From Thalassotalea sp. PP2-459 (GTDB taxonomy: Bacteria > Pseudomonadota > Gammaproteobacteria > Enterobacterales > Alteromonadaceae): a stretch of 40,138 nt of DNA. The position numbers and the translations under genes were made by a program. Below are positions 35,012-37,252 of the stretch, piece after piece. The notes beneath the pieces were generated by a model. The model made no database searches and had not been told where the DNA came from. It was given only the letters and a program-made list of their open reading frames with translations. Numbering within the stretch: the first letter of the stretch is position 1; each line of letters starts with the position of its first letter. The stretch spans positions 1 through 40,138 of the forward strand of contig NZ_MKQD01000007.1 in the NCBI RefSeq assembly GCF_001913705.1, written 5' to 3'.

Positions 35012-35065
35012 ATGATTTCTCATAAACTATCTATTGCACCCATGCTCGATTGGACTGCTTTCTAG
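35012..35065 (+). pseudogene. dusA: Severed 5' end of dusA
   Basis: The frame from ATG 35012 reads MISHKLSIAPMLDWT, then two foreign codons and a stop at 35063-35065. LSIAPMLDWT equals the [10 protein letters not shown] of the intact dusA downstream, so this is the original N-terminal coding end, cut off by an insertion between it and the rest of the gene. It is not functional alone. Confidence 0.85.
35034..35055 (+). repeat. attL-like direct repeat (dusA segment)
   Basis: 22 bases (TTGCACCCATGCTCG... to TTGGAC) identical to 36309-36330. They encode APMLDW of DusA. Sequences on either side differ between the two copies, so the identity ends sharply. Confidence 0.9.
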
Positions 35066-35103
35066 GTTTATCAGGGACTGCGAGCTAGTTTGGGGTTCCT
35101 GTA

Positions 35104-35131
35104 GGGTGACCAATTGATATTGAGGGTGACC
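35104..35131 (+). repeat. GGGTGACC pair, left end of element
   Basis: Two copies of GGGTGACC at 35104-35111 and 35124-35131, 20 bases apart. The same word occurs twice near the right end. They could be recombinase or excisionase binding sites; that is inference. Confidence 0.6.
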
Positions 35132-35184
35132 GAATTCAGGAGGCTAGATTGTTCGTTTGTGTTATTGGTAATATGGTTTTTAAC

Positions 35185-35940
35185 TTAACGTGTAAACTTT
35201 CTAAAATTAGTAATTTCTAAATCAATTTTACTTAGCATTGAATGATCATTAAACCTATCTCCAGTGATAATTTTTGTGGGTTTTAAGTAATCTGGCATCG
35301 TAATAGGTTTACCACTTTCACCTTCTTTAAAGGGGAATAACTCAACTAAACGAAATTCTTTTTCATATTGCCAGTGTGACGTTTTTGCAGTAACTATTCT
35401 TGTTATTGTTTCTTCAGGGCACAACGCGATCTCTCGTGCAGAAATAATAGGGAGAGTAGTTGAATAGACTACGGGTAAAATTTTAGTGTTAGGAAGTTCA
35501 TTATATTCATATTCGACACAAAAACCTTCATGATTTTCAGCGTAGTGAGCCCATAATAAAGGGTCGTTAACTTCTCCAGAGAAAAAACAACAAATACCAA
35601 CTGAGTTAAGAATATTGTGTCTGATGTTTGCAACTGATAATTCACGTTCTAAGTTTTGTATTGCATCAGCATTAATGCAGTTTTCAATATAGATTTTTAT
35701 TTCTTGAATAATTTCTTTCGAAAATACCGCATTTTTATAGTCAAAATTTTCAGGATAAACAGTATTAATAGTAGATATTAATGTCTGTAAATATATATCC
35801 GAAAGAGGAGGCATATAAAGAGCCTGAATTTTACAGTCATTTAAATCATTAAACATTTTTGGGGAGGAAAGCCAAAGTTGATTGTTAGCAAGCGTGTCAC
35901 AACGCTCGTCATCCAGCTTTTCAAAACGATATAGTTTCAA
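35185..35940 (-). CDS. DUF2971 protein, cargo of the dusA element
   Basis: A 251-residue DUF2971 protein: KLYRF start, LWLSSPKMFNDLND near residue 22, the LLWAHYAENHEGFCVEYEY motif in the middle, and the WQYEKEFRLVE motif near the end. The biochemical role of the domain is not established. The family is common on accessory islands. The start is TTG 35940 with no good ribosome-binding site, and the gene is AT-rich. It is the sole gene inside the element, facing away from the functional dusA. Confidence 0.75.
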   Translation of the reverse strand: MKLYRFEKLDDERCDTLANNQLWLSSPKMFNDLNDCKIQALYMPPLSDIYLQTLISTINTVYPENFDYKNAVFSKEIIQEIKIYIENCINADAIQNLERELSVANIRHNILNSVGICCFFSGEVNDPLLWAHYAENHEGFCVEYEYNELPNTKILPVVYSTTLPIISAREIALCPEETITRIVTAKTSHWQYEKEFRLVELFPFKEGESGKPITMPDYLKPTKIITGDRFNDHSMLSKIDLEITNFRKFTR

Positions 35941-36159
35941 TGAGTTAAATTCTTATGAAATTTTCAAAAGGTAAATACTATATTACAGAGTCTTTATTTT
36001 GAAACCAATGAATAAAATAATGTCCACATCGATTCGCGGGTTAAAGTCTATCAGTTTAAAAATAGTAGTTAAGTTATTATCCATCAGTTTTTTAGAAATT
36101 ACACTTATTCTTAATGTATAATCGCCACAATATTTTAAGCTCAAAATCCTACTTTCTGA

Positions 36160-36178
36160 GGGTGACCAAAGGGTGACC
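36160..36178 (+). repeat. GGGTGACC pair, right end of element
   Basis: Two copies of GGGTGACC at 36160-36167 and 36171-36178, one helical turn apart, just before the re-started dusA coding region. They match the pair at the left end. Confidence 0.6.
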
Positions 36179-36202
36179 GCAAAGGAAACTCAAGGTAATT
36201 CT

Positions 36203-37252
36203 ATGCGATTCAGAGCAATTGAAAGCGTCAAATATATGAATAAAGAAACTATTGAACCTACCGGAAAATCTAAAACTCCCGTAAATAGGGGGCTACATGC
36301 ACTTTCCGTTGCACCCATGCTCGATTGGACCGATCGCCATTGTCGTTATTTTTATCGAACCATGTCTAAAAACGTGGTGCTGTATACGGAAATGGTGACA
36401 ACAGGCGCTATTTTATTTGGTAAAGGTGATTACTTAGGGTTTAACGAAGAAGAGCATCCTGTTGTTTTGCAGTTAGGTGGTAGTGATCCTGAAGCGATGA
36501 CTAAATGCGCGATAATCGCCGAGCAGCAAGGTTATGATGAAATAAACATTAATGTAGGGTGCCCTTCTGACCGTGTTCAAAACGGCAAGTTTGGTGCCTG
36601 TTTGATGGCTGAACCTGCTCTAGTATCTCGCTGTGTAGAGCAAATGCAAACAGCAGTAAATATTCCTGTTACCGTGAAATCGCGCATTGGTATTGATGAT
36701 CAAGATAGCTATCAGTTTTTACATCAATTTATCAGTGAGGTATCTCAAGCGGGTTGTGAACATTTTATTGTACATGCTCGTAAAGCATGGTTAAGTGGTT
36801 TAAGCCCTAAGCAAAACAGGGAAGTACCACCACTTGATTATGATCGGGTTTACCAAATTAAACGCGACTTTTCGTCGTTAAACATCTCTATTAATGGTGG
36901 GATTAAATCTTTTCAAGAAGTAAATCAACATTTAACCCATATTGATGGGGTAATGATCGGCCGAGAGGTGTACCAAAACCCTTATTTATTGTCTCAAGCG
37001 GATCAGCAAGTTTGGCATGAAAACACTGTGGTGAAAACACGAGCGCAAATTATTGAAGAAATGGCTGCGTATATTGATAATTATGTCGCCAATGGTGGTC
37101 GTGTATGGCATGTTGTTCGGCATATGCTTGGTTTATGCAACGGTTTACCAGGGGCAAAACAATATCGTCGTTACTTAAGTGAAAATGCTAACCGTGAAGG
37201 TGCAAATAGTCGTGTTCTACTTGAAGCGTTTGGTAAAGTGAAGGGTATTTAA
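36203..37252 (+). CDS. dusA: tRNA-dihydrouridine synthase A with replaced N-terminus
   Basis: This FMN enzyme reduces uridine 20/20a of tRNAs. The family features are [17 protein letters not shown], the [19 protein letters not shown] block with the Cys taken as the catalytic acid, [13 protein letters not shown] and [16 protein letters not shown]. About 35 residues before the conserved start come from the inserted element and replace the seven residues of the original N-terminus. I choose ATG 36203 (AAGG upstream). Other possible starts are GTG 36173 and ATG 36236. The extra tail is low-complexity and probably tolerated. A TATAAT at 36117-36122 may be the new promoter. Confidence 0.92.
36309..36330 (+). 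repeat. attR-like direct repeat (dusA segment)
   Basis: Second copy of the 22-base repeat, inside functional dusA. It marks the crossover point between the element-derived N-terminus and the native coding sequence. Confidence 0.9.

Follow-up and report, generated by a model that had tools for sequence, protein, structure and literature searches.

A small integrase-less unit at the dusA gene of Thalassotalea sp. PP2-459 and elements of similar layout with different cargo

The dusA gene of Thalassotalea sp. PP2-459 (genome G000), which encodes a tRNA-dihydrouridine synthase and is thus a tRNA-modification gene, is interrupted by a 1,275-bp unit with a 22-bp copy of the dusA 5' core on either side, the two copies being identical. 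We interpret this unit, with a probability of about 0.65, as an integrative element that is non-autonomous and makes use of the attachment system otherwise employed by dusA-specific islands and prophages. The best reading of this unit and of the other integrase-less elements described below is a family of non-autonomous units, most of them carrying a single gene, which exploit the sites where dusA prophages and islands attach. The initial annotation had offered a decayed island and a non-autonomous element as two readings of the unit. We prefer the latter, because two other genera have elements with the same ends and unrelated cargo and because none of the five integrase-less elements contains a remnant of a dusA-associated integrase (DAI); a decayed island is a less probable reading.

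The window, i.e., the whole stretch of 40,138 nucleotides that was analysed, is contig C7 of the G000 assembly (4.08 Mb in 85 contigs), and its relevant features are listed in Table 1. The two copies of the core, TTGCACCCATGCTCGATTGGAC, are spaced 1275 bp apart, and the coordinates confirm the earlier description of a dusA gene split by an identical repeat with 15 native codons left behind. After the second core, the body of dusA is in frame again. We chose the ATG at 36236 as the start of the restored gene because it is the sole start that is also present in the related element of genome G079 (see below); a longer ORF from 36173 to 37252 is possible too. The new start of dusA in G000 is therefore probably the one at 36236 and supplied by the element. 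The element perhaps supplies dusA with a promoter as well, to judge from a promoter-like site upstream of the new start. A scan of the stretch returned six sites of this kind against 6.8 expected, so the scan alone is no evidence for a promoter.

Table 1. Positions of the features at the interrupted dusA locus in the window.
Feature	Position	Strand	Remark
dusA native-start stub	35012..35065	+	15 native codons, two more and TAG (17 codons); read from the sequence
attL, left attachment core	35034..35055	+	22 bp, same as the right core
Left end of the element	35056..35187	+	found in G079 and G084 too; depending on the pair, local homology reaches +101 to +180, counted from the core
Left arm word GGGTGACC, copy 1	35104..35111	+	
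Left arm word GGGTGACC, copy 2	35124..35131	+	start-to-start spacing 20
Cargo gene, 251-aa DUF2971 protein	35185..35940	-	Pfam PF11185, E 5.2e-7; TTG start
Right end of the element	36061..36308	+	also in G084 (155/192) and, at 91.2% over the final 205 bp, in G079
Promoter-like site toward dusA, TAGAAA-18-TATAAT	36093..36122	+	TATAAT at 36117-36122 also in G079 and G084
Right arm word GGGTGACC, copy 1	36160..36167	+	offset equal to that of DAI-island arm pairs
Right arm word GGGTGACC, copy 2	36171..36178	+	start-to-start spacing 11
dusA restored ORF, 338 aa	36236..37252	+	Pfam Dus, E 5e-94; start and N-terminus from the element
attR, right attachment core	36309..36330	+	opening codons of the dusA body

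The unit is an insertion, because a genome of the same species (G066, a single contig) has an empty site. This site contains one core and the native start, and the zur ORF ends 262 nt before the core. The same dusA start is found there 24 nt ahead of the APMLDW codons. G000 and G066 share 916 of 936 positions in dusA (97.9%) and 265 of 269 in the upstream region (98.5%). Two further genomes of the genus, G021 and G128, also look empty, with zur at 227 and 328 nt, and the same dusA site is occupied by a DAI-bearing island in the congener G099. The five genomes of the genus that were read comprise three empty sites (G066, G021 and G128), one integrase island (G099) and one integrase-less element (G000). 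An empty site in close relatives, which the initial annotation had proposed to look for, thus exists within the species. Nor do all relatives share one layout lacking both empty and integrase-bearing sites, as G066 is empty and G099 carries an integrase island. Site-specific insertion of the unit in dusA is well supported.

Inside the unit, the word GGGTGACC forms one pair near each end. It occurs four times in the 40-kb window, every copy lying within the unit, against 0.19 copies expected, and none of 100 shuffles reached four. Genome-wide, the word is not enriched in G000 (32 copies versus 34 for the reversed control word), and nowhere in the assembly except at the two pairs of the unit do two copies lie within 30 bp of each other on one strand. 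The paired words at both ends and the presence of a DUF2971 gene as the sole gene were recognized correctly from the start: this gene is the single ORF of at least 80 aa between the cores, and the unit has no integrase or replication genes of its own. Among 395 genomes of the family, pairs of GGGTGACC occur at chance level (11/395 genomes, compared with 15/395 for the reversed control word), and a pair at the dusA core was found only in G000 and G079. The word is also part of a 34-bp tandem repeat in another genome (L024; G160 C51:10253-10362), whose 3-kb locus lacks a dusA core.

A search of genomes for the core repeat with arm pairs and without an integrase, as suggested in the initial annotation, revealed elements in G079 and G084 that share the ends of the G000 element and have unrelated interiors. 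The element of G079, which belongs to another genus, is 2,982 bp long and carries one gene. The element of Pseudocolwellia agarivorans QM50 (G084), a member of the same family, is 1,776 bp long, also carries one gene and has degenerate arm words. The shared ends extend from the left core to +101 to +180 and toward the right core from -235 to -261. In between, the best local scores among the three interiors are 14-18, compared with 15-16 for the reverse-strand comparison. Over the 205 bases that precede the dusA body, G000 and G079 agree at 187 positions (91.2%), whereas the dusA bodies match at only 649 of 900 (72.1%). Between G000 and G084, the right end matches at 155 of 192 positions (26 gap columns) and the dusA body at 631 of 900. 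The left ends, which match that of G000 at 65 of 85 positions in G079 (76%) and at 60 of 84 in G084, are not clearly above dusA identity. The similarity between G000 and G079 at the right end fades at the core with no sharp break, since dusA itself matches at 106 of the first 120 bp and at 571 of the remaining 810 bp. These sequence comparisons make a spread of the element ends between genera well supported, with the contrast at the right end as the strongest sign.

Elements with these particular ends number only three (G000, G079 and G084). A query with the right end against the 395 family genomes returned these three together with weak matches in G217 (71% over 110 bp) and in the DAI island of G280 (84% over 37 bp). 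Against 394 genomes of the order, the only new match was in G395, where the DAI is broken by an insertion sequence. The genera of G079 (two genomes) and G084 (three genomes) yielded no new element. A scan for GGGTGAC pairs suitably spaced from a dusA core, in records among which those near the window may be absent, found one place, the G084 element, which does not differ from L067 over the 1,500 bases compared. Two more integrase-less elements have the same layout as that of G000 and other arm words. One, in G039, is 1,063 bp long, encodes a 246-aa protein and shares the arm word GGGGCAC with the DAI island of G025. The other, in G217, is 2,095 bp long, with ORFs of 60 and 216 aa and the arm words GGGTGCC and GGGGGCC.

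Altogether, 140 dusA loci of the family were examined whatever their content (the window, L037, L040-L159 and L179-L196). These came from the best-matching of the 390 family genomes with a DusA match, so that distant genera are under-sampled, and several are short as a result of contig ends. The survey left out three genomes in which the start of dusA is cut off or lies at a contig edge (G076, G112 and G032) and seven listed matches (G247, G082, G004, G123, G157, G111 and G153). A full-length DAI was found beside dusA in 22 loci, a DAI at a contig end in one (L093) and DAI fragments in six. Four of the 140 loci lack an integrase and have two cores and, at each end, arm words, a count that is a lower bound because calling needs a recognizable second core and arm pair. 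The fifth integrase-less element, that of G217, and the locus of G395 came from the right-end search outside these 140 loci. In 15 of the first 122 loci, zur lies within 350 nt, as in the empty site. Five loci were left uncounted, namely L058 (G101), L070 (G046), L103 (G190), L104 (G092) and L138 (G352); they have one to three extra dusA 5' cores upstream, with no arm pair and no integrase match, and could represent further integrase-less elements or else a stacking of dusA starts. The survey material also includes two loci with two DAI-like integrase genes in tandem beside dusA (L059 in G209 and L127 in G338). In L178 (G395), the DAI ends where the ORFs of an insertion sequence start, which is IS3-like by inspection. 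G025 has a second DAI-like gene with one internal TAG (C9:3461-4402) on a contig other than that of dusA.

In most DAI loci, a word of about 8 bp stands in tandem close to -150/-140 relative to the core, spaced by 11-13, and these are the positions seen in the window. The words vary among loci, including GGGGTAC, GGTGTAC, GGGGCAC, GGAACAC and others, and the pair is degenerate, differently spaced or missed by our script in L059, L110, L127 and L137. For 21 of 23 DAIs (L127 and L137 were dropped because their arm pairs had fewer than 6 of 8 matches), identity correlates modestly with the similarity of the arm words (r 0.32, a value attained in 46 of 5000 permutations). We regard the tandem words as putative arm-type sites of the integrase.

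We also looked for the integrase and for the excision factor RdfN in the genomes with integrase-less elements. A tblastn search with 23 DAIs detected no remnant in any of the five elements. The same search detected remnants in all seven loci that had been chosen for their DAI pieces, which serves as a sensitivity control only. The DAI of phage L161 gave short matches, or matches of 28-30% identity and 44 bits at best, in the genomes of G000, G039, G079 and G084; the 28-30% matches in G084 are ORFs of 357 and 359 aa. The same query matched G099 with 56% identity and 428 bits. No match was obtained in a DAI search of the G217 genome. The best tyrosine recombinase of G000 itself scored 67 bits, compared with 437-619 for intact DAIs, which are part of the model by construction. 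The RdfN/PrtN family PF11112 was not found in G000, G039, G079, G084, G217 or G066, and was present in G048, G099 and G280, the three genomes with intact DAI islands that were queried. The DAI and RdfN searches of the five element genomes therefore found no helper.

Possible helpers were seen among viral sequences. Two IMG/VR contigs have a GGGTGAC pair before the dusA core, and both encode a DAI. One of them has portal, terminase, scaffold and major head protein families, a set that we take to be P2-like. A GGGTGAC pair precedes the DAI in six of the 37 IMG/VR loci examined, including these two contigs; the 37 are those of the 80 DAI loci returned that had a flank before the integrase. The right ends of the GGGTGAC phages are not close to that of G000, with 106-113 matches over 168-179 aligned bases. 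At the left end, the arm words are spaced by 20 in G000, G079 and G084 and by 11 in phage L161 and the islands L049, L131 and L137, so the fit of the element to a known helper is uncertain. An IMG/VR search with the conserved right-end and left-end words of the element gave 0 and 0 matches, and thus no helper with the whole end is known. In G217, the right end of a GGGTGAC-armed DAI phage lies directly to the left of the element (L177, bases 570-741 in dusA orientation). It is 82-91% identical to L229 and L230 and contains what reads as a truncated DAI start. This arrangement indicates that a remnant of an integrase element and an integrase-less element have stood in tandem at dusA at least once.

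The cargo genes of the five elements differ. The DUF2971 protein of G000 matches the PADLOC family PDC-S31 (E 8.2e-41) and PHROG 1762 (E 9.2e-32). Its structure model is weak (pLDDT 66), and no solved fold matched it. The 736-aa cargo protein of G079 matches PADLOC PDC-S46 (1e-258) and has a sub-threshold match to SMC_N. The cargo of G084 is a 245-aa protein with no family, and that of G039 looks membrane-bound by eye; PADLOC gave no match for the cargo of G039, G084 and G217. The PDC label denotes candidate phage-defence families, and a literature search for PDC-S31 or PDC-S46 as whole words returned no paper. These matches make anti-phage defence by the cargo plausible in two of the five elements. 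DUF2971-like genes are also found in four Vibrio phage records. One is a distant relative of the G000 cargo gene (L198; PQ189304.1, 8762-9451), in a Vibrio phage annotated with a PM2-like capsid.

The unit could instead be a relic resembling a CIME: deletion would have stripped a larger dusA island of its integrase and of most other content, and what was left would have become fixed in place, in which case the ends would be common by island ancestry. Decayed DAIs are indeed common at the dusA site, with fragments or a broken gene in seven loci, and a helper gene was not found in the five element genomes. CIMEs are defined as keeping attL and attR after loss of the integration and transfer genes (PMC5704250), and between genera, left-end similarity barely exceeds that of dusA. 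However, the right ends of G000 and G079 are far more alike than their dusA bodies, and the homology stops at similar points in three genera with no trace of a DAI in between. The DAI island of the congener G099 was considered as a direct source and rejected, since its arm words differ (GGTGTAC) and the element is therefore not its deletion product. Such a relic is the main rival reading, and for one that spread at some time and moves no longer we see about one chance in four.

An old relic could also have been spread by ordinary homologous recombination of the dusA region, with no integrase involved. This would agree with the lack of a sharp drop in the similarity of G000 and G079 at the right core (106/120, then 571/810), but selection on the first codons may have produced such a gradient within dusA. 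Moreover, the flank upstream of the left core is 98.5% identical to G066, and the ends are common to several genomes while the cargo is not, which makes exchange of this kind improbable. Very improbable, too, are an assembly artefact and a duplication in place of the dusA 5' end; the repeat itself is all that speaks for them. The right copy differs from the native one in both its upstream context and its start codon, and the same structure is present in other assemblies, including the 3-contig assembly of G079. The initial annotation had named a 22-bp identity arising from local duplication as a possible objection; we rejected it on the grounds of the foreign context upstream of the second core and the empty site in the same species.

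If the unit is a non-autonomous element, its movement might proceed as follows. An incoming or co-resident phage or island with a DAI would provide the integrase (Int) for integration, and a GGGTGAC-armed DAI from such a source would bind the paired words and recombine core with core. Excision would be carried out by Int/DAI together with RdfN from the helper. The element could then travel as a circle or in tandem fusion with the phage or island, tandem fusion being the simplest route between cells, and it would persist through repair of dusA and carriage of a defence gene. A broader picture, which we consider possible rather than likely, is that one-gene defence cassettes with standard ends and no recombination genes move among marine Gammaproteobacteria by means of the integrase and RdfN of dusA prophages with matching arms, through tandem fusion, and that cargo is swapped between the ends. 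The published survey of dusA islands started from the integrase (PMC4482086), and an integrase-first survey would miss elements such as that of G000. If the arm words act as address labels of integrases, the site and two short words would suffice to find passengers and to name their likely helpers. Such addressing, if true, would give a testable route for the movement of single defence genes.

Several known systems are close to the G000 element, among them the DAI islands and prophages. They resemble the G000 element in the insertion point at the 5' end of dusA, the type of core repeat and the replacement of the dusA start (PMC4482086), as well as in the tandem words before the core in most of the DAI loci we examined. 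The 94 dusA islands described measure 4,758-184,808 bp and have the integrase as the only gene common to all (PMC4482086), whereas the G000 element is 1.3 kb long, with no integrase match and no RdfN found. Other users of dusA are tailless Vibrio prophages, which likewise repair the gene (PMC11630473). The G000 element is like a CIME, in which the att sites are kept and integration genes are absent, in having both att sites and no integrase or transfer genes. CIMEs can stand in tandem with an integrase element (PMC5704250), and the G217 element adjoins a remnant of one. The elements described here differ in mostly having one gene, with ends that are common across genera around different cargo. 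Descent from an ICE or IME is a trait of CIMEs and would be conjectural for the G000 element, which contains no DAI remnant and for which the right-end query found no parent island with the same ends in the 395 family and 394 order genomes. MITEs and CALINs are hitchers of transposons and integrons that use recombinases in trans (PMC11389934). They share with the G000 element recognition ends and a recombinase from elsewhere, if the latter indeed acts in trans on the element. In contrast to a MITE, the G000 element has direct core repeats at one chromosomal site instead of terminal inverted repeats, and one coding gene. PICMI are small marine phage-dependent satellites that protect their hosts from other phages (PMC10803314), and both phage dependence and host protection may apply to the G000 element. 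PICMI lie beside fis and have three core proteins for excision and replication, none of which the G000 element encodes. A precedent for the proposed movement is the mini-IE of IMEVchUSA3, a laboratory construct with cargo between attL and attR at dusA that was excised by Int and RdfN alone (PMC8409611). The construct keeps int, whereas the natural G000 element has neither int nor RdfN. A full-text literature search returned no description of an integrase-less dusA element in the titles or abstracts shown. Non-autonomous elements flanked by att sites are known as such, and those described here are small, mostly one-gene elements with shared ends and different cargo.
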